Source: Desulfitobacterium metallireducens DSM 15288 (GTDB taxonomy: Bacteria > Bacillota > Desulfitobacteriia > Desulfitobacteriales > Desulfitobacteriaceae). Taken from it: a stretch of DNA of 64,000 bases. How positions within the stretch are numbered: position 1 is the first letter of the stretch; every line of letters begins with the position of its first letter. The stretch lies in contig NZ_CP007032.1 of assembly GCF_000231405.2 (NCBI RefSeq), positions 2,418,001-2,482,000 of the forward strand, given 5' to 3'. The notes beneath the pieces were generated by a model, which was given only the letters and a program-made list of their open reading frames with translations, had not been told where the DNA came from and made no database searches. Position numbers and translations under genes: made by a program. Below, piece after piece: positions 17,970-53,237 of this stretch.

Positions 17970-19121
17970 TCAAGGTGTTGAATTCTTAGGCAACCCATAT
18001 ATCGGCAACAAGCGAAAAGCAAGGTAGAGAATGAATATCTCTGCAAGGGCAAAGATTCCAATCATCAATAAATGCTGTGGCGCCACCGTATAGGGATTCA
18101 GCGTATCCGTACTGAGCGGTATTTGTTGACCGCCGATAACAAAGTTAACCCGCATTGCAATGACTCCGAGCAAGGTAAAAATAGACCCCAAGGAAATCCA
18201 GCCCAGTGATTTTTTCGTTTTAGATATAACCGTGATCATAAACGGTAACAATAAACCCAAGCCAATTTCGACCCCTAAGAACATCGTTTTGTGACTTCCA
18301 TATAAGAAGACCTTGGCTGCTGCATATCCTGCTGCATTTGTATAATAAAGAGCGATAAAGTCGATAACCATAAGTGTGGCATCAACCACAATAAACCACT
18401 TCATCAGCTGAGCAATGTCCAAAATCAATGCTTTTCGCTCCGGTGTCAATATTTTTTCTGGAGAGAAAAAACGTTGGGTAATGATGAGCACTAAAATTAA
18501 GAGACCCGTTCCAGACACCATAGCCGACATCAAGAAAATGAGAGGCATGAGACCAGTATGCCAGAGAGCACGAGCTTGGATATTCGCAAGGATAAAGCCC
18601 GTATACCCATGAACGAGAAGCGCTAACGGCACCCCGATCGTTCCCAATCTCTTAATCCATTGATCATCGTTAGCTAAGGCTTGCTCAGAAAGATCCGTTT
18701 TCCCAAACGTTAAAAACTGATAAAATCTTTGCCGGAAGCCGGTTAAGGATTCAGCCCCTTTTGCAAAATCCCGTCGCATCATAAACCAAAGATAAACTAC
18801 CGAATTCAAAGGATATAAGGTGAGCAAGAATGTACCGTAAGAAATCGCCGAATGAGGATTAAGGCGAAAAAACAAAGTATAGAAGCGTTGTGGTTGCTCC
18901 AGGTCTCCAATTAAATGGAGTGGGGCAATTGCCAATAAAGCAACGGCCATAACAACGCCGACCTTACCAATTGATTTATATTTTTTAATCCCGAATACGG
19001 TTCCCAAACTAGAGAGGACAAAAGCTCCAGCACTTAGACCTGTATAGAAAAAATAGATGGCAATCATTGCTCCCAGTTGGACAGGATGTTCGATGTTGGC
19101 AATATACGTCACATTATCCAC
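17970..19121 (-). CDS. NrfD/PsrC-type membrane quinol subunit of the reductase
   Basis: This 383-residue protein has eight to ten hydrophobic segments and resembles the NrfD/PsrC family, which passes electrons between the menaquinone pool and a ferredoxin-like subunit. Typical features are EHPVQLGAMIAIYFFYTGLS near the N-terminus and the paired acidic and aromatic residues at membrane borders such as LIGDLEQPQRFYTLF. The start is GTG 19121, four bases after the stop of the B subunit, with AAAGGAG 9 bases upstream. An in-frame start at 19184 would overlap the B subunit. No heme-binding cytochrome is present in the operon, so the subunit probably uses menaquinol directly. Confidence 0.9.
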   Translation of the reverse strand: MDNVTYIANIEHPVQLGAMIAIYFFYTGLSAGAFVLSSLGTVFGIKKYKSIGKVGVVMAVALLAIAPLHLIGDLEQPQRFYTLFFRLNPHSAISYGTFLLTLYPLNSVVYLWFMMRRDFAKGAESLTGFRQRFYQFLTFGKTDLSEQALANDDQWIKRLGTIGVPLALLVHGYTGFILANIQARALWHTGLMPLIFLMSAMVSGTGLLILVLIITQRFFSPEKILTPERKALILDIAQLMKWFIVVDATLMVIDFIALYYTNAAGYAAAKVFLYGSHKTMFLGVEIGLGLLLPFMITVISKTKKSLGWISLGSIFTLLGVIAMRVNFVIGGQQIPLSTDTLNPYTVAPQHLLMIGIFALAEIFILYLAFRLLPIYGLPKNSTP

Positions 19122-19122
19122 T

Positions 19123-19734
19123 CTAATTCTCTCCTTTCTCCAGGTTCGTATAACGGGCACCCATGATATCCCGCTCAGCTCCAATATAGTAAACCATAGG
19201 TTCTGTATTCATTTCTGGTTTTAATACTTGAACCGGATTATTGGCTACAAGTTTTGCCACAAGACTCTCTGCGTCATTTAAATCTCCAAACACACGAGCA
19301 CCGCCTACGCAGGTCGTCACACATGCCGGAAGAAGACCCGCTTGAACCCGATGATAGCAAAATGTACATTTTTCAGCTGTTTTTCGGACAGGATTAACGA
19401 AACGAGCATCGTAAGGGCATGCTGCCATACAATACTTACAGCCAATACAATGATCATAATCGATCAGGATCGTCCCATCGTCAGCCCGATAGGTTGCTTT
19501 TACCGGACAAGCCGCTAAACAAGGAGCATTATCACAATGGTTGCATAAGCGAGGTAAGCGGTAGCGCGTAACCTCGGGATACGTTCCTTTCTCAATTTCC
19601 TTAACCCAAGTCCGATAATTACCCTCCGGAACTTGATTTTCAATCTTGCAGGAAACGGTACATGCATTACAACCTACGCACTTTCGTAAATCAACAACCA
19701 TTGCATAGCGTATCTTTTTCTCAGCCTCAGCCAC
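19123..19734 (-). CDS. Four-[4Fe-4S] ferredoxin subunit of the molybdoenzyme (TtrB/PsrB/DmsB type)
   Basis: This electron-transfer subunit of 203 residues has four cysteine clusters: CVGCNACTVSC, CNHCDNAPCLAAC, CIGCKYCMAAC and CTFCYHRVQAGLLPACVTTC, the standard pattern of DmsB/PsrB-type proteins. It should carry electrons from the NrfD-type subunit to the catalytic subunit and be exported by riding with the Tat-targeted partner, as it has no signal peptide. The start is GTG 19734, because GAAAGGAG sits 8 bases upstream. An in-frame TTG at 19752 would put that ribosome site inside the gene. A long tail of about 45 residues follows the last cluster. Confidence 0.92.
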   Translation of the reverse strand: MAEAEKKIRYAMVVDLRKCVGCNACTVSCKIENQVPEGNYRTWVKEIEKGTYPEVTRYRLPRLCNHCDNAPCLAACPVKATYRADDGTILIDYDHCIGCKYCMAACPYDARFVNPVRKTAEKCTFCYHRVQAGLLPACVTTCVGGARVFGDLNDAESLVAKLVANNPVQVLKPEMNTEPMVYYIGAERDIMGARYTNLEKGEN

Positions 19735-19748
19735 TAATGCCACTCCTT

Positions 19749-20423
19749 TCAAAACGTTTCATTCAAAGATTTGCTCTCTTCCTGGCACAATTCTAAGGCC
19801 AGTATAGCGAAGTAAGAATAGAATCCAGAGGTCTCTAATTTCACGAGTTCTCCCGTAAACTGAGGGAGCCAGCCGAGTAAATGGTCGTTAAGCATTCTAT
19901 TTTGCAATTGGCGAAGGCCCGTAATCTCTTGCCCTGATTTAGCCGCTTTGTCTTCTAACCGACAGAGATAGGCTATAAATAGAAGTTCTAATCCCAGATG
20001 ATCAGGTATCTTCGTCTCTTTAAGCGGTTCAAAGATCTCAAGGGTCCCCGGATCAAATCCCACTTTCTCATAAAGAGCTGCGAGTTGATGAGCCTGCATT
20101 CCCCAATGTGCTCCATATTTTATCCTCTTACCCTTTTCACGCTTCGCTCCACGAATTGTTGATTCGAAGGGGGGAATAAAACGGCCCGATACAGGAACAA
20201 AAAAGAGATCATAGTATTCTTGCGTTAAATTCATAAGCTCTGAATCCTCGTTTTGGATCTTCTCGAGAATAGCCTTGAGTTCAAGAAGTTTCTCAGTTGA
20301 TCCGGAGTCTGTCCAGGCTTTAAGTCCTTCCATCCCTTCAGTTGAGGGCTCTTTCAAAAAGATTTCTGCCAGAACCTCATAACCTCTCGCTCTATCGATC
20401 ACATTTTCATCCATTTCGAACAT
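19749..20423 (-). CDS. TorD/DmsD-family molybdoenzyme chaperone
   Basis: The 224-residue soluble, largely helical protein matches the TorD/TtrD/DmsD group of redox-enzyme maturation proteins that bind the Tat signal of a molybdoenzyme until the cofactor is inserted. The region YYDLFFVPVSGRFIPPFESTI with the later DHLGLELLFIAYLCRLEDKA (E..F(V)P and DHxxxEL) is the hallmark of this family. It lies between the catalytic and the iron-sulfur subunit genes, where such chaperones are commonly encoded. Confidence 0.88.
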   Translation of the reverse strand: MFEMDENVIDRARGYEVLAEIFLKEPSTEGMEGLKAWTDSGSTEKLLELKAILEKIQNEDSELMNLTQEYYDLFFVPVSGRFIPPFESTIRGAKREKGKRIKYGAHWGMQAHQLAALYEKVGFDPGTLEIFEPLKETKIPDHLGLELLFIAYLCRLEDKAAKSGQEITGLRQLQNRMLNDHLLGWLPQFTGELVKLETSGFYSYFAILALELCQEESKSLNETF

Positions 20424-20444
20424 TTATTTATCCCCCTCACACTT

Positions 20445-23400
20445 TTAAAGCTTAACAAGCCGAGCCTTAATCGTATTTCGATCCGCTGAGCCCCCCACAA
20501 GATCAACAAGGGGGTGCATATTATTCATACTGGTATCTCGAAGTGCCAAAAGATTCAGCAGAATACCTTTTCCATCCTTCGGATTCACAGGTATCTCTTT
20601 CCCATCCACAGTATACGATTTCGCCCCTGCGCCCCAATGTCCATAGCCATATTCCACAGCAATCGAACCTTGACGTACACCGCGACGGACCTTAGCTGTG
20701 CCTTCTGCCTCACCTGACGGGGTAACGAGCTTGACTTTGTCTCCACTCTCAATTCCTAACGTTGTGGCATCCTCTAAGTTTAGCTCGATATAGTTCGTGT
20801 CTTGCATATCTTTGAGAACAGGGACATTTGACAAATAGCCGCCTGTACGATAACGAGGTTTGTAAGAAATGACTTGGAACGGCCAATCTTGGTCTGGATA
20901 GACTTGATCGATCGTTCGTCCATCAGCAAAGGCTGGGGGTTGCCAGGTTGCCGTACCTGGTAGCAGCTCACCCGATATGCTACTCCGGGTTGACGCTAAT
21001 TTTTCATTATAAATATTGACCACTTTGGCAAATTGATTATGAAGGAAATCCCCATCATAATTCTTATCATAATCCTCAAAGCGCCCGCCCCGAGCGAGTA
21101 GGTAATACACCTTTTTCCACTCTACCGGTGTGAGTGAAGACTGATAAGGTTTTAAATCTTCTTCAAGACCCGATAATGCCAATTCCTCTGGATCAATATC
21201 TGGCACAGGCGTTTCATCAAATGCAATGTTGGCCATCGCCTTCAAAAAGAAATCCGCAGCAGAATTCATCGGAGTAGCTGCACCTTGAGCATCGGCAATT
21301 CCGTTTTCCCCTACTCCAGGCAAGTTGAGTAATTTGCCTACCTCAATGAGATAAGTTTCAAGCGAATAAGGCTGCCCACTTTTCGTCTTAGGAACAAGGG
21401 GATCAATGACCGGGCGACGGGCACCACTGACTTTGGTAAGAATCAAGTTCCAAACGGTAGGTACGCCCCAACTTTCATAAAACGTCGTATCCGGAATGAT
21501 GTAGTCAGAGTATTGAGTCGAATCCCCCATCAAGACATCCACGCCGATAATCAGTGGAATATTTTTAGGGTCCTTGATATAGTCTTCAACATCCTTACGG
21601 AAGAGACCAGGAGTCGCATAAAGCGGGTTCGTCATCCAAAGCATCAGGATTTTCGCAGAATAAGGATAACCTGCCATCATTGATGGAATAACATGGCCTT
21701 CTAAAGAATCGGCAAGTGGAGTCCAAGGTAAAGTGGCTGGATACGGATTTTCGCCTTTGGCTTTACGTGCTTTGAATTCAGGGGTATCCTCGTAGTTTGA
21801 CCCTTCTCTGCTTATTTTGAAGCCCTTAGTCTTTCCACCCGGGACAGTCGCAAGATCATACTGTTTCCCTTTATCAACTGCAACATATCCTCCTCCGCTC
21901 TTGGTCGAACCGCCTTTACGGTTAATATTTCCGACAAGCGCATTAAGCATAATCACAGCTAGGGAGCTATAAAAACCATTCGTATGCATGGAAACACCAC
22001 CATGATGATCTGTAGCGGCCTTCGTCCCATGTCTAAAGAATTCTTTAGAAAGTTTGAAAATACGTTCCTTCGTTACCCCACAGGCTTCAGCATATTGATC
22101 AAAGGTAAAACGATTGGCTTCATCCAAAAGAATCTGCAGGGAACTCTTCACGAGAACCTCTTGATCGCCAACCCTTAACTTTCCACTATAGAGAATGACG
22201 CCTTCATTGCTCTCTGTAGCGTTCATCGGATTCCCCATTGCTTTATCCATCACAACATAATTGATCGCTGCCGGTTGAGGATTGGCCGCTACTTGAGCAT
22301 TAGCTGCAGCAGGTTGTGTCTTTTCCGGTATCTTTAACCCAATCTGTTCAGCACGGAGAAACATCCCATAATCCGGATGATCCGGCTCTTGGATGACAAG
22401 GTAGGTTGCATTCGTCCAAGAGGGATTTCCTTTCTTCGCTGCTGCTGCTTTGGTAGGAGCAGACAGATAGGTCTCATTGATTTTCTTTTGCTCGAATGCC
22501 CATCGAACCATGGCCATAGCAATTGCCCCGTCACCACCTGGACGAACAGGTACCCAGGAAGACTCTTCTGCATCAGGTGAATTATACATCCCGTTTTGGA
22601 GTACAGGATCGATGATGACGGCTTTCATATTTCCTTCTGCCTGACCGAGCGCTGATTTGCGAGCCATGGGCTGGAAGGGGGCCCCCGCTTGACCGGGTGC
22701 GTTGCCAAAGAACATTACAAATTCGGAGCTCATGTAATCCGCTTTCATATGAGGCTTCTTATCCCAAGTATCTAAGAAGGCTAAAAAAGCAATCCGTCGG
22801 CTGTTTCCGCAAATCCCACCATGTCCGTAAAAGTTAGGTGTTTTATAACATTGGGTAATGAAACGCTTGGGAAATTCCATTCGTCCATCGTCTCGTCCAC
22901 CAATAAAGACCAGTTGATTCGCCTTTGGGCCCCAGCCAGCTTGCTCAGGGTTAAGCGGGGTATTTTGATCATGAACTTGCCGAAGGCCTTCAATTATTCC
23001 GCTTTCCCCAATTTCATTAAAGAGTTCGCCGCCTTCAACAGTTTCTTGGATGGCCTGTTCCCAAGTAATCGGTTTCCACTTTCCTTCTCCCCGTTTACCT
23101 GTACGTTTTAAAGGGGTAAGAATCCGATTCGGATCATAGACCATCTGAAAAGCTGCATTTCCTCTTTGACAAACCGTTGCTTTCTGGGTATGACCTAACT
23201 CTTGATATTGACCTAAACTCAGATAGGAATCCTTAAGTGGAGTCTTATAGGGCAGATGCGGCTCTGCATTACTCGGATGGTAAGGGTTACCTAAAACACG
23301 TAAAATTTTACCTGTCTTCTTATCAATTTTGACCCGATTACCACAGTTGCTCCAGCAACCTAAGCAGACGCTATTTTTTAAGGCAATATCAGGATTAAGG

Positions 23401-23582
23401 GTTACGCTTCCCGTCTTTGGGTCAATCTTCATTTCTACCGGCAAAGCCTCATGGTCATAAGGCGTAGGATTGGTAATCATCTCATCCGCAAGCACAGCAG
23501 GGATCATTTTTTCCATCCCTAAGCCAGTAGCCGTCAATGAACCCACAACAGCTACAGATTTTAGGAATTCGCGCCTATTCAT
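20445..23582 (-). CDS. Tat-exported molybdopterin oxidoreductase catalytic subunit (TtrA/PsrA/SrdA-like)
   Basis: The 1045-residue protein starts with a Tat signal (NRREFLKS at residues 2-9, then AVVGSLTATGLG). A [4Fe-4S] motif follows with C73, C76, C80 and C138. C258 in GHGGICGNSRR is the likely molybdenum ligand. Later segments, including YSDYIIPDTTFYESWG and the C-terminal molydopterin-binding domain, fit the DMSO reductase family. The length and the insertions are closest to tetrathionate reductase TtrA and to selenate or arsenate reductase relatives. The substrate cannot be fixed from sequence: tetrathionate, selenate, arsenate, thiosulfate or polysulfide are all possible. It is the first gene of the operon and has a sigma-54 promoter. 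No in-frame UGA occurs, so it is not a selenoprotein. Confidence 0.9.
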   Translation of the reverse strand: MNRREFLKSVAVVGSLTATGLGMEKMIPAVLADEMITNPTPYDHEALPVEMKIDPKTGSVTLNPDIALKNSVCLGCWSNCGNRVKIDKKTGKILRVLGNPYHPSNAEPHLPYKTPLKDSYLSLGQYQELGHTQKATVCQRGNAAFQMVYDPNRILTPLKRTGKRGEGKWKPITWEQAIQETVEGGELFNEIGESGIIEGLRQVHDQNTPLNPEQAGWGPKANQLVFIGGRDDGRMEFPKRFITQCYKTPNFYGHGGICGNSRRIAFLAFLDTWDKKPHMKADYMSSEFVMFFGNAPGQAGAPFQPMARKSALGQAEGNMKAVIIDPVLQNGMYNSPDAEESSWVPVRPGGDGAIAMAMVRWAFEQKKINETYLSAPTKAAAAKKGNPSWTNATYLVIQEPDHPDYGMFLRAEQIGLKIPEKTQPAAANAQVAANPQPAAINYVVMDKAMGNPMNATESNEGVILYSGKLRVGDQEVLVKSSLQILLDEANRFTFDQYAEACGVTKERIFKLSKEFFRHGTKAATDHHGGVSMHTNGFYSSLAVIMLNALVGNINRKGGSTKSGGGYVAVDKGKQYDLATVPGGKTKGFKISREGSNYEDTPEFKARKAKGENPYPATLPWTPLADSLEGHVIPSMMAGYPYSAKILMLWMTNPLYATPGLFRKDVEDYIKDPKNIPLIIGVDVLMGDSTQYSDYIIPDTTFYESWGVPTVWNLILTKVSGARRPVIDPLVPKTKSGQPYSLETYLIEVGKLLNLPGVGENGIADAQGAATPMNSAADFFLKAMANIAFDETPVPDIDPEELALSGLEEDLKPYQSSLTPVEWKKVYYLLARGGRFEDYDKNYDGDFLHNQFAKVVNIYNEKLASTRSSISGELLPGTATWQPPAFADGRTIDQVYPDQDWPFQVISYKPRYRTGGYLSNVPVLKDMQDTNYIELNLEDATTLGIESGDKVKLVTPSGEAEGTAKVRRGVRQGSIAVEYGYGHWGAGAKSYTVDGKEIPVNPKDGKGILLNLLALRDTSMNNMHPLVDLVGGSADRNTIKARLVKL

Positions 23583-47137: not shown

Positions 47138-48205
47138 TTAATTCATAGCGACCTTGATTAACCCCGGTTCACCCAACCCAACTTGCCCGATAACAGCTGA
47201 TACAAGAGTCTTATGTTTTCTCAGAGATTCCAGTAAAACCTCTAACCGTTCCGCCGGCACAGAGATCAACAACCCGCCCGAGGTTTGGGCATCACATAAT
47301 ACAAGCTGTAGTTCCTCAGATATCTCTTTGTCAAATACCACTTTATCCGCAAGGAACTCTCGATTCGCAAGAGACCCTCCAGGAATCGCTTTTTTCTTCA
47401 GGCAATCCCAAGTCGCTTCAAGGATAGGTATTTTCTGCGCTTGAAGCTGAGCTTCGACGCCACTCCCCTTCATCATTTCATGAAGGTGTCCTAACAACCC
47501 AAAACCTGTGATATCGGTTACCGAACTCACGTTAGCCTCGATCGCCGCTTCAGAAGCGGATTTATTTAGCTCAGCCATCACGCGAATAACTTCTTGCTCA
47601 CCTTCAACAGAGACTAAACCCCGTTTGATACCCGTCGTAATAATTCCGATCCCCAAAGGCTTAGTAAGCACAATATAATCACCCACTTGGGCTTTGGCAT
47701 TGGATAGCACCTGTTGCGGATGGACGATTCCTGTAACTGAAAGCCCGTATTTAGGCTCTTGATCATCGATCGAATGTCCCCCCAGCAGAATGGCACCTGC
47801 TTCGCGGATTTTATCGTAACCTCCCTGCAAAATCTGTGCAAGAATCGATTTATCTAATTCCTTGATCGGAAAAGCAACGAGATTCATTGCCGTTAAGGGT
47901 TTTGCTCCCATCGCGTAGATATCGCTCAAAGCATTAGCCGCTGCAATCATTCCAAACGAGTATGGGTCATCGACGACTGGAGTAAAGAAATCTGCAGTTT
48001 GAACAATCGCCTGTTCCTCATTTAACTTATAAACCCCTGCATCATCATTGGTATCAATTCCAACAATTAGATTAGCATCTTTAACGTTTTTCGGTATATG
48101 ACGCAAAACTTGCGCCAGGTCCGCAGGACCAATTTTACAGCCTCAACCCGCTTTAGTGGAATATTGGGTCAGGCGAATTTTATCTTGAGCATTTCCCAGC
48201 ATCAT
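47138..48205 (-). CDS. selD: Selenophosphate synthetase SelD, selenoprotein with Sec21
   Basis: SelD makes selenophosphate from selenide and ATP for tRNA-Sec synthesis. From ATG 48205 (after GGAGGAGGG) the frame reads MMLGNAQDKIRLTQYSTKAG, then codon 21 is TGA (48145-48143), then GCKIGPADLAQVLRHIPK. This is the catalytic AG(C/U)GCK motif with selenocysteine in place of cysteine, as in several known SelD proteins. Counting from the next ATG at 48106 would lose the active site. C23, K24 and the Asp-rich GIDTNDDAGVYKL metal/ATP loop follow, and the rest matches SelD over 355 residues. selA is the preceding gene, so the pathway supports itself. selB and selC are not in the window. Confidence 0.93.
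48118..48145 (-). promoter_or_regulatory. UGA-Sec codon with a SECIS-like hairpin
   Basis: The TGA codon of selD (48145-48143) is followed 12 bases later by the perfect inverted repeat GGTCC-TGC-GGACC (48130-48118). Bacterial SECIS hairpins lie just downstream of UGA and are required for Sec insertion by SelB. Whether this exact loop is the SelB site is not established. Confidence 0.55.
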
Positions 48206-48281
48206 TGTGAATCCCTCCTCCGATAAGCAATACATATATAAACTTATAACTTAATAATTATATATCGTTTCTCCTCTTCTT

Positions 48282-49703
48282 TCAAGTTTCCATATACACT
48301 CCGGTCCACTGGCTGAGAATACTCAGTATTTCCTCCCGATCTCCTTCTAGCAACGTTCTCGGATCAAAGAGGACCCAGTCCTTTTTGATTCGAGCTAAAA
48401 TCGATACTCCAAACGTGCGCAAATAGGCTTCGAACTCCTGGACACTCCCTTGTCGTGGTCGCACAGCACAAACCCACGTCGATAATTCTTCAGTAGGCCA
48501 AGCGCCTCCGCCAACCTGGGAAAAATCAGCTTGCACTTCCACGTGAAAATAGGCAAGTTCTTCAATGCCATTTTTTAAAAGCTCTGCCTCAGCGCGTAGC
48601 TCTGTTTCAGGTTTTGAGAGCATTCTCCAGACCGGTATTTTATCTTCTTCGTCTCGTTCGTAAAGATGCAAGGTCCCTTCTAACGCAGCCAGTGTCAATT
48701 TATCGATGCGCAAAGCTCGAGTTAATTGATTCTTTTTTAATTTTTCAATAAGCTCACGCTTGCCGATAATGATACCCGCTTGTGGTCCTCCGAGCAATTT
48801 ATCGCCACTAAACGTGACCAGACTGAGTCCTGATTGTACGGCTTGGGCAATCGTAGGTTCCGGTTGCAACCCCAAAAACAAACCATCTCTGAAGCTTCCA
48901 CTTCCTAAATCCTCAACCACGGGTAACTTGTATTTTAGCCCCAATTCAACGAGCTCCTGGCTTGAAACAGCATGGGTAAATCCTTCGATACGATAATTGC
49001 TGGTATGAGCCTTAAATAGGAGGCCTGTTTCTGGCTGAATCGCCTCTTCATAATCGCATATCCACGTGCGATTCGTCGCGCCAACCTCAACAAGCTCTGC
49101 TCCACCGACTTTTAACACCTCGGGAATCCGAAACGAGCCTCCAATCTCCACAAGCTCACCCCGGGAAACAATCACTTTCCGATTTTGAGCAAAAGTATTC
49201 ACGACCAAAAGAACCGCAGCCGCATTATTGTTCACGACCATTGCTGCTTCTGCTCCCGAAAGCTGGCAAAGCAGTTTTTCTACATGAACATAGCGCGAAC
49301 CTCGCTCTCCGGTCTCAACATCAAGTTCTAGATTACTATAACGTTGCGCCTGCTCCGCGACAAATTCAGCGACCTCAGGAGCAAGTAAAGCCCTGCCGCA
49401 ATTGGTATGGAGAATGACTCCTGTTGCATTAATGACCCGCCTTAAACTTGTCGGCTTATTTCGAAGCGCATCTCGCACATCATCTATAAGATAAGGCCAG
49501 ATTTCACTTTCCTTAAGGCTTTCATCCTGTCCCCTTAGAATTTTATTCCGGATTTTTTGCAAACTCTCCCGAATCACTTGTGTTAAACGGTGTTTATCTC
49601 CTTTATTCGTCAAAAATGCAGTGAATTCTTCCATCGCTTCCAAGCGCGCTTGAACCTCATGCACTGCGGGTAAGGCTCTTAGTAAGGAATTTATTTTCTC
49701 CAC
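48282..49703 (-). CDS. selA: L-seryl-tRNA(Sec) selenium transferase SelA
   Basis: This PLP-dependent enzyme converts seryl-tRNA-Sec to selenocysteyl-tRNA. Family motifs include RRVINATGVILHTNCGRALL, NNNAAAVLLVVNTFA, HTSNYRIEGFT and the PLP lysine motif VTFSGDKLLGGPQAG. GTG 49703 gives MEKINSLLRALPAVHEV and has GAGGAGT about 10 bases upstream; an in-frame start at 49826 would add a 41-residue extension unlike SelA. The product has 473 residues, and selD follows 76 bases downstream. Confidence 0.95.
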   Translation of the reverse strand: MEKINSLLRALPAVHEVQARLEAMEEFTAFLTNKGDKHRLTQVIRESLQKIRNKILRGQDESLKESEIWPYLIDDVRDALRNKPTSLRRVINATGVILHTNCGRALLAPEVAEFVAEQAQRYSNLELDVETGERGSRYVHVEKLLCQLSGAEAAMVVNNNAAAVLLVVNTFAQNRKVIVSRGELVEIGGSFRIPEVLKVGGAELVEVGATNRTWICDYEEAIQPETGLLFKAHTSNYRIEGFTHAVSSQELVELGLKYKLPVVEDLGSGSFRDGLFLGLQPEPTIAQAVQSGLSLVTFSGDKLLGGPQAGIIIGKRELIEKLKKNQLTRALRIDKLTLAALEGTLHLYERDEEDKIPVWRMLSKPETELRAEAELLKNGIEELAYFHVEVQADFSQVGGGAWPTEELSTWVCAVRPRQGSVQEFEAYLRTFGVSILARIKKDWVLFDPRTLLEGDREEILSILSQWTGVYMET

Positions 49704-49853
49704 TGCTAAACACTCCTCAACATTTATTTCTTGACTCGACTTATTTTCCCACAACTCGCCCGCACTCTTTTTAAGATTTCGACATCGGGTTTGTCTTATT
49801 ATAAAGAAAACAATTCTATATCCCAACCCAAGCTAGACAGGAGGCATCACCCC

Positions 49854-50871: not shown

Positions 50872-51990
50872 TTATTTTTCTTCTTTGGGGTCCAAAGATA
50901 TAAGTTTGTAGTCCCTAGTTCCTAACCCGATTTCTTCGCCATAAGCCAATTGAACAGACCAGTCCACCGCGGGATGAAGCGTTCGGAACTTATCCCCTTC
51001 ACCATGATGCTTCCCTAAGAGCGAATGAGGATTGCCATGGGCCTGATTTACAAGATCTACAGCTGCCTGATCAATGGCAACAGGGTCGGTTGAGGCTAAG
51101 ATCCCAATATCGTGCACGATCGGAATATCGTTCCAACCGCAGCAGTCACAAAGGGGCGAGACATTATTAACAAAGGTAATAAATCCAACTTTGCCTTCTT
51201 TTCCTTTCAGAACCCCAGCTGTATATTCAACAATTTTCTCCTGAATCACATCCGGCTCCGTCTTCCAGTTTACAGTGATGGCTTTGTGAGGACAGGTTAC
51301 AGCACATTCCCCACAACCGATACACAACTCGTGATTAATATGAGCTTTGCCTTCAATTGTAATCGCCTGGGCAGGGCACCATAGCTTGCATTTTCCACAA
51401 GCAATACAAACATCTTCCTTAACCGTTGGCAAAATATCCGAGTGCTGTTGTTGTTTACCAGCACGGCTACCCAGTCCCATCCCTAAATTTTTCAGGGTAC
51501 CTCCGAAACCGGTTGCTTCGTGCCCTTTAAAGTGAGTTATAGCAATTAAAGCATCCGCGTGCACTGCCGCACTGCCGATTTTCACCTCTTGGAAATGTTT
51601 CAGACCTACCGGCACAGATACATAGTCTTTCCCATTTAAGCCATCGGCAATCATCAGAGGTGCTCCAACGACGGAATAATCAAAACCATTCTCGATAGCC
51701 GTTTCCAAATGATCCACTGCATTCGAACGGGAGCCTACATAAAGGGTATTGGCATCCGTCAGAAAAGGGCGACCTCCCTTCATCTTGACTTGATCCACAA
51801 CCCGGCGTACATACTGAGGCCGAATGTAGGCTAAATTTCCTCGCTCCCCAAAATGCAATTTTAAAGCGACGAGATCCTTTGGTGCAATTCCCTCTAAAAT
51901 CTTCGAACGATTCACAAGCTTCTCGAGCTTAGTCAACAGACTTTGCCCATTCTTAATCTGGAAGTTTGTAAAATAAACCTCAGCGCTCAT
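50872..51990 (-). CDS. DUF362-domain ferredoxin protein
   Basis: This protein of 372 residues has a DUF362 N-terminal domain (LVALKLHFGERGNLAYIRPQ; IAITHFKGHEATGFGGTLKN), then two [4Fe-4S] motifs, CIACGKCKLWCPAQAI and CIGCGECAVTCPHKAI. A C-terminal part has SPLCDCCGWNDIPIVHDIG and GILASTDPVAIDQAAVDL. DUF362 proteins are common in anaerobes; the function is unknown but redox is likely. ATG 51990 follows AGGAGTGAGG; an in-frame start at 52014 is less likely. The small membrane protein gene upstream probably belongs to the same transcript. Confidence 0.86.
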   Translation of the reverse strand: MSAEVYFTNFQIKNGQSLLTKLEKLVNRSKILEGIAPKDLVALKLHFGERGNLAYIRPQYVRRVVDQVKMKGGRPFLTDANTLYVGSRSNAVDHLETAIENGFDYSVVGAPLMIADGLNGKDYVSVPVGLKHFQEVKIGSAAVHADALIAITHFKGHEATGFGGTLKNLGMGLGSRAGKQQQHSDILPTVKEDVCIACGKCKLWCPAQAITIEGKAHINHELCIGCGECAVTCPHKAITVNWKTEPDVIQEKIVEYTAGVLKGKEGKVGFITFVNNVSPLCDCCGWNDIPIVHDIGILASTDPVAIDQAAVDLVNQAHGNPHSLLGKHHGEGDKFRTLHPAVDWSVQLAYGEEIGLGTRDYKLISLDPKEEK

Positions 51991-52020
51991 ATATATAGCC
52001 TCACTCCTTAACATTTTAAC

Positions 52021-52517: not shown

Positions 52518-53237
52518 TCAACGTGGATAATAAGGGCACTCTGTTTTGAGACATTGCTTATTACGCCAAAAATCCTTACAGACAGGGAGTTTATGCGCCT
52601 CTTCTGAGAAGTGAACATTGCTATCCCGTTCAAGAATTTTTATTGCCGCAAGTATAGACGAATAAGTACTCCGCTTGCAGCATCTCGGCCCTCCGTAAGC
52701 CCCAACACTTTGTAAAACTTCACCTGTATCCCGATTCGTTTGCCCCCAGATTTCCTGGCTAAGCGGAGTCAGCCCACGAATAACACTAAGCGCAATACCT
52801 GTCCCAATGGCCGCTCCACACGCTCCCCAACTTCCACAGCTTCCACCCGGGAGTTGTTTGGCACGTAACCACGCATTTTTAATTTGTGAATCGGTAATAT
52901 TCATCCCCATGTTCTTAAGAGCAGTCAACAACACCATAGGGACCATTAAATGATGCTCTGGGCCATGCATCTGGAAAACAGGCGCAGCCATAATTTCACG
53001 GGCTAGTTCAATCGGGTTCGTACTTAAACTCGTTTCGAGAATAATCTTAATGATTTGATTTGAATCCGCGCGGTGGCATTCATCGCAGATATAATGTCCG
53101 TGCTTACAGGAAATCGTACTTGTAAACTCTTTCTTGCAAAGGGAACAGTGATACGTTTTAACATTTTCAGAATAGCTTAGCTCCTCCCCACAAATCATAC
53201 ATCCTTCAGTATGCTTATTTTTCACTTCAATCTGCAT
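52518..53237 (-). CDS. DUF5714-type cysteine-rich protein
   Basis: The 239-residue protein opens with zinc-ribbon pairs CMICGEELSYSENV and CSLCKKEF, CKHGHYICDECHR. The middle has LPGGSCGSWGACGAAIGTGIALS, typical of DUF5714. A later ARG-free tail ends with CKDFWRNKQCLKTECPYYP. DUF5714 genes occur in anaerobes, often near radical-SAM genes; the role is unknown. The cysteine-rich ends suggest metal or persulfide chemistry. A CsoR-like operator overlaps its promoter. Confidence 0.72.
   Translation of the reverse strand: MQIEVKNKHTEGCMICGEELSYSENVKTYHCSLCKKEFTSTISCKHGHYICDECHRADSNQIIKIILETSLSTNPIELAREIMAAPVFQMHGPEHHLMVPMVLLTALKNMGMNITDSQIKNAWLRAKQLPGGSCGSWGACGAAIGTGIALSVIRGLTPLSQEIWGQTNRDTGEVLQSVGAYGGPRCCKRSTYSSILAAIKILERDSNVHFSEEAHKLPVCKDFWRNKQCLKTECPYYPR

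Follow-up and report, generated by a model that had tools for sequence, protein, structure and literature searches.

A probable selenocysteine-containing SelD in Desulfitobacterium metallireducens, with a conserved two-hairpin RNA structure downstream of its in-frame UGA codon

Introduction

What does a selD gene encode when a UGA codon interrupts its reading frame at the position of the catalytic residue, and which RNA structure, if any, would allow that codon to be read as selenocysteine (Sec)? The question is raised by the selD locus of Desulfitobacterium metallireducens DSM 15288, which we analyzed within a 64,000-nucleotide stretch of the genome, referred to here as the window. An earlier reading of this DNA (the original prediction) held that SelD is itself a selenoprotein in this organism, noting that Sec-containing SelD is known in other bacteria, and nominated an inverted repeat shortly after the UGA as the SECIS candidate. 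The statement about other bacteria is borne out by the literature: among prokaryotic selenoprotein families, Sec-SelD ranks second in size, and among bacterial selenoproteins it is also the second most widespread (Zhang et al. 2006, PMC1794560; PMC13188914). About 19% of the prokaryotic SelD proteins in a reference set carry Sec, always at the Cys17 site (Mariotti et al. 2015, PMC4561486).

Results

A selD frame with a single interruption at codon 21

The selD frame runs over 356 codons from ATG 48205 to a TAA at 47138, with the TGA as its only interruption, and would yield a product of 355 amino acids with a predicted Sec at residue 21 (Table 1). Its 5' end reads ATGATG, so that 48202 offers a second possible start. 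The start at ATG 48205, the in-frame TGA at codon 21, and the inverted repeat GGTCC-TGC-GGACC 12 bases beyond it were all part of the original prediction and are found in the sequence. It was mistaken in placing an ATG at 48106, where the codon is TTG (codon 34), the next in-frame ATG being located at 47950 (codon 86). Its argument that a downstream start loses the active site holds despite the wrong codon: the mechanical list of open reading frames contains a frame of 322 residues beginning at TTG 48106, from which the active site is missing. Automatic annotation with a standard gene caller would be expected to yield a shortened SelD devoid of the catalytic residue.

Table 1. Features of the selD locus, in coordinates of the window
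Feature	Position	Strand	Remarks
selD (selenide water dikinase / selenophosphate synthetase)	47138..48205	minus	TIGR00476 match; 3u0o alignment
In-frame TGA, predicted Sec codon 21	48143..48145	minus	aligned on E. coli SelD Cys17
Ribosome-binding site, GGAGGAGGG	48213..48221	minus	7 bases before ATG 48205
Hairpin 1, GGUCC-UGC-GGACC	48118..48130	minus	12 nt past the UGA; alignment columns 16-20 with 24-28
Hairpin 2, UGGCGCAA-GUU-UUGCGUCA (DNA TGGCGCAA-GTT-TTGCGTCA)	48099..48117	minus	loop 33 nt past the UGA
AAGUUUU apical motif of hairpin 2 (RGUYU type)	48105..48111	minus	GU invariant in the order-level set
selA open frame (L-seryl-tRNA(Sec) selenium transferase)	48282..49826	minus	TIGR00474, 557 bits, residues 50-505

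The readthrough product matches the TIGR00476 model with 408.9 bits (cut-off 125) over residues 11-319, corresponding to a full SelD, and its alignment with E. coli SelD (3u0o) extends over residues 7-320. In this alignment, the active-site motif AGUGCK (residues 19-24) lies opposite AGCGCK of 3u0o, and the conserved lysine (E. coli Lys20) is present. The full-length equivalog match, together with the catalytic Cys/Sec-Lys pair, assigns the predicted product to the SelD family.

A complete Sec-decoding set and a single SelD

The complete genome of 3,176,073 bases encodes one SelD; the runner-up in the genome search is a distant relative with 24% identity over residues 44-259. The possibility, considered at the outset, that a second, Cys-type SelD serves this organism is thereby set aside. 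Directly upstream of selD lies selA, whose stop codon is a TGA and whose true start is probably downstream of the TTG at 49826. The selA-selD gene order, on one strand, is kept in most relatives within the order. The genome also encodes a tRNA-Sec with the anticodon TCA (67.7 bits, cut-off 47), SelB (367 bits, cut-off 242), and YbbB (347 bits, cut-off 220), and the Sec-decoding set of selA, selB, selC, and selD is complete. Two formate dehydrogenases carry one in-frame TGA each, one of them an FdhA scoring above the cut-off and the other a second FdhA-like gene. These fdhA genes are found at positions 1887 of L019 and 1950 of L022. A search of the genome for GrdA came back empty, with controls that were equally silent.

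Elsewhere in the window, positions 17970-23582 hold what we take to be a large molybdopterin oxidoreductase with a metal-site Cys (KNSVCLGCWSNC), accompanied by ferredoxin-type and membrane subunits and a TorD-like chaperone; this cluster looks like a non-selenium respiratory reductase. Upstream of selA and on its strand are presumably a DUF362-type ferredoxin protein (50872-52014) and, at 52518-53237, a DUF5714-type protein rich in Cys.

The TGA codon is conserved and replaced by Cys codons alone

Across 74 genomes of the order, exactly one in-frame TGA is present in all 37 full-length matches of at least 60% identity, which comprise the gene itself and 36 from other genomes. The sole long match at this level of identity that lacks the TGA starts at residue 49, past the codon. 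Homologs in close relatives could have been found to start beyond the UGA, which would have spoken against the selenoprotein reading; the TGA is instead kept in 36 of 36 full-length relatives. We also inspected 109 homologous loci one by one at the Sec site, as had been suggested by way of an alignment to Cys- and Sec-type SelD. The TGA falls on Cys17, and the site is occupied by TGA in 81 loci, TGC in 19, TGT in 9, and any other codon in none. With TGA, TGC, and TGT as the only codons at this position, the site bears the signature of Sec rather than that of a stop codon or an error, and a conserved in-frame UGA that gives way to Cys codons alone identifies the predicted product as a probable Sec-containing SelD.

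These data bear directly on the proposal of a true stop or a sequencing error, in which the TGA reflects either a nonsense mutation or faulty assembly and selD is a pseudogene or starts at TTG 48106. Although a frame from that TTG does appear in the mechanical list, its product would have neither the catalytic residue nor the motif lysine, no other SelD is encoded in a genome that has retained selA, selB, and selC, and the codon is kept in every full-length close relative while homologs elsewhere show only TGA, TGC, or TGT opposite it. We consider the probability of this proposal negligible, and the conservation of the TGA led us to reject both its pseudogene and its downstream-start versions.

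A separate observation concerns selD of Poseidonibacter lekithochrous (L099 4052-4111), which has TGC where its closest relatives (L098, L101, and L104) have TGA. The sequence of the downstream hairpin is almost unchanged, pointing to a recent Sec-to-Cys change with a remnant of the SECIS.

Two adjacent hairpins are maintained after the UGA

Synonymous divergence among 32 distinct close orthologs, calculated in 11-codon windows, reaches its gene-wide minimum at codons +5 to +15 past the TGA (0.21, compared to a median of 0.58). The same stretch is unconstrained in six Cys-type genes of Bhargavaea that encode a nearly identical peptide (0.41 versus 0.39). The low divergence after the TGA is accounted for by two adjacent hairpins (Table 1), with hairpin 2 (alignment columns 29-36 with 40-47) following directly behind hairpin 1.

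In an alignment of 38 sequences, 94.9% of the cells of the two-hairpin structure are paired (92% for hairpin 1 alone), its covariation score was reached by none of 500 shuffles, and four pairs have changed on both sides; when the pairing partner was slid by 1 to 3 columns as a control, pairing fell to 24-51%. Within hairpin 2, columns 33 and 43 form a G-C pair in 26 sequences and an A-U pair in 10, and four to five pairs of this hairpin show changes on both sides. Pairing extends to a set of 30 sequences drawn from many phyla, with 82.3% of all cells and 88.8% of those in helix 2 paired, and RNAalifold predicted hairpin 2, and hairpin 2 only, from this set unaided. In the set of Cys genes, no helix of at least 4 pairs at 75% pairing was detected, and hairpin 2 is absent. 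Synonymous recoding of the gene's own peptide produced both helices in 0.2% of cases. Taken on its own, the sequence folds with an unexceptional energy (z-score of about -1.4 to -1.7, with 6% of synonymous recodings folding equally well), and because of this weak signal we base the structural claim on the comparative tests. Searches against Rfam gave no matches in the whole window at gathering thresholds, nor in positions 48050-48300 at E-values up to 5. The covariation, the slid controls, and the synonymous constraint argue that the predicted bSECIS has been maintained here by evolution as an RNA structure.

A longer helix, pairing UGYAARAU after the UGA with GUUUUGYG, was considered and rejected even though it is paired at 0.98 in the close clade. 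It is built on the conserved codons for Cys-Lys-Ile and is missing from the set of other phyla, and the covariation observed at columns 33-43 belongs instead to hairpin 2.

Among Sec genes equipped with hairpin 2, 70 of 72 show a hairpin of at least 4 base pairs at the site of hairpin 1; the corresponding figure for Cys genes is 10 of 29 (Fisher p = 2e-11, a guide only given that the sequences are related).

How else might the UGA be decoded? A suppressor might read it as Trp or another residue, or a Sec machinery charged with sulfur might read it as Cys. The sequence is compatible with such events in a minor fraction of molecules, Cys is the alternative residue in many homologs, and such readthrough could explain how selenophosphate synthesis starts up from zero when only a Sec-type SelD is available. 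Yet TGA serves as a normal stop close by, at the end of selA, the replacement residue in homologs is always Cys, and the SECIS-type structure tracks the Sec genes and not the Cys genes; we therefore regard decoding other than as Sec as very unlikely.

Hairpin 2 is the likely SelB-binding element

Which of the two hairpins would SelB recognize? Published rules for the bSECIS call for a stem of 4-16 bp, a loop of 3-9 nt with a G as its first or second base, a distance of 16-37 nt between the UGA and the loop, and an energy of -7.5 kcal/mol or lower (PMC13188914). Hairpin 2 conforms to these rules with its 8 bp, its GUU loop, and a distance of 33 nt, and the 43 nt after the UGA, containing both hairpins, fold at -13.9 kcal/mol. 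In the D. metallireducens gene, hairpin 1 likewise fits the geometry, having a UGC loop with G in second place, 17 nt from the UGA.

Comparison across genes separates the two. The loop of hairpin 1 varies within the clade (UGC, UUC, AGC, UAG, CUUCA, CUAGU, and others), whereas the GU loop of hairpin 2 is preserved. Among the Sec genes with a G-loop hairpin 2, 38 of 72 either show no G where the rules place it in hairpin 1 or have no hairpin 1. Conservation of hairpin 1 in the clade is also less telling than it might seem, since the peptide G-P-x-D-L leaves little choice for three of its four inner pairs. In paralogs that encode S-P-Q-D-L or S-P-Q-A-L (L140-L146), the hairpin is kept by other bases, in some cases shifted by one base.

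The genome's own fdhA genes offer a second point of reference. Their equivalent loops read GGUCU and AAGUUU, compared to AAGUUUU in selD. The SECIS loop of fdhF in E. coli has a conserved G23 and U24, of which the former is essential (PMC8659212). When numbering begins at the U of the UGA, the G and U are at positions 23 and 24 in both fdhA genes of D. metallireducens and at 37 and 38 in selD. The selD loop is thus 14 nt farther from the codon, a difference made up of the 13 nt of hairpin 1 plus one, suggesting SelB binding at hairpin 2 and a spacer role for hairpin 1. Based on these comparisons, hairpin 2 is the likely site of the SelB-binding loop; for the proposal of a folded hairpin 1 serving as a spacer, we see about even chances.

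The reverse assignment, with hairpin 1 as the SelB-binding SECIS and hairpin 2 as an auxiliary element, draws on the position of its loop and of the second-place G, both as the bSECIS model asks (PMC13188914), and on a second clade of Sec-SelD genes in which hairpin 1, with a GG-type loop, is the sole conserved hairpin. It is difficult to reconcile with the free loop of hairpin 1 in the clade of D. metallireducens itself, with the location of the strong covariation in hairpin 2, and with the fdhA loops of the genome, which resemble hairpin 2 and not hairpin 1. We consider it unlikely. The inverted repeat put forward as the SECIS candidate is accordingly a real and conserved hairpin, but the SelB loop probably resides in the next one. 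A check with a bacterial SECIS model, also recommended in the original prediction, gave a mixed answer in the same sense: the geometric rules admit both hairpins, the comparison favors hairpin 2, and Rfam yielded no match.

A possible second Sec-SelD layout within the order

Several genomes of the order encode two or three SelD genes, with and without the TGA, while D. metallireducens has one. Some of these genes form the second Sec-SelD clade (GSGUACKIGPEDL type; L147 and L149-L158), in which the TGA and hairpin 1 are in place without hairpin 2, and the loop of hairpin 1 reads GGA, GGG, GGC, or GGU at 16-17 nt past the UGA. In this clade, hairpin 1 is presumably the SECIS and the site of SelB binding. 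Taking the Sec genes together, the loop of hairpin 1 contains a G in 24 of the 28 that have no G-loop hairpin 2, compared to 34 of the 72 that have one (p = 6e-4, to be taken as a guide only in view of the relatedness of the sequences).

The loop G of hairpin 1 follows the lack of a G-loop hairpin 2, which suggests that Sec-SelD genes may use two exchangeable SECIS layouts, either a proximal GG-loop hairpin 1 at about 17 nt or a distal hairpin 2 with an RGUYU-type loop at 33 nt, for which hairpin 1 would be retained as a 13-nt spacer bringing the effective distance to the UGA back to normal. We advance this idea tentatively and rate it at somewhat less than even. Under the same reservation, selD of D. 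metallireducens might represent the distal kind and the paralogs from the same order the proximal kind. If true, the two layouts would show how far from the codon a SelB loop can be placed and what compensates for the distance, with consequences for the finding of selenoprotein genes and for the engineering of Sec insertion.

Discussion

Our analysis indicates that selD of D. metallireducens very probably encodes a Sec-containing SelD, with Sec, we infer, supplied by way of the RNA structure downstream of the UGA. The central claim of the original prediction thus finds support in homology, in the conservation of the TGA, in the full Sec machinery, and in the constraint on the RNA after the codon.

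We envisage the following sequence of events. Translation would begin at ATG 48205. With the UGA in the A site, the complex of SelB, GTP, and Sec-tRNA(Sec), held on the downstream mRNA structure, would deliver Sec and thereby complete the AGUGCK motif. SelB would most likely grip hairpin 2 through its AAGUUUU loop, and hairpin 1, if it remains folded at the entrance to the mRNA channel, could serve as a spacer that brings the SelB loop to an effective distance nearly like that in fdhA. The finished SelD is predicted to convert selenide and ATP into selenophosphate, which would be passed to SelA for the synthesis of Sec-tRNA(Sec), including that used for the Sec of SelD itself, and to YbbB for tRNA selenouridine.

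Because the genome lacks a Cys-type SelD, SelD would need its own product in order to be made. This circular need for selenophosphate bears on how cells with only a Sec-type SelD restart after selenium starvation. As a protein, the selD product appears to be an ordinary Sec-SelD; the remaining interest lies in the layout of its SECIS and in the self-dependence of the single enzyme.

How does this gene compare to known systems? Cys-type SelD, as in E. coli, is homologous over residues 7-320 and has the motif AG[C/U]GCK in common with it. It differs in having Cys for Sec and, in the Cys genes examined, no conserved hairpins after the codon. The second Sec-SelD paralog of the order shares the TGA and the site of hairpin 1, but has no hairpin 2 and carries a GG loop. 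With SECIS elements of the fdhF type, including E. coli fdhF and the genome's own fdhA, selD has the RGUYU-loop stem in common, G23 and U24 of E. coli corresponding to the GU of the AAGUUUU motif. Unlike in fdhA, this GU is displaced by a gap close to the length of hairpin 1. With bacterial Sec-SelD, the D. metallireducens gene agrees in the enzyme, in the position of Sec at the Cys17 site, in the Sec machinery, and in a SECIS-type structure within the coding region after the UGA. There is no difference at the level of the protein; what distinguishes the clade of D. metallireducens is its predicted two-hairpin SECIS, with a SelB-type loop 33 nt from the UGA.
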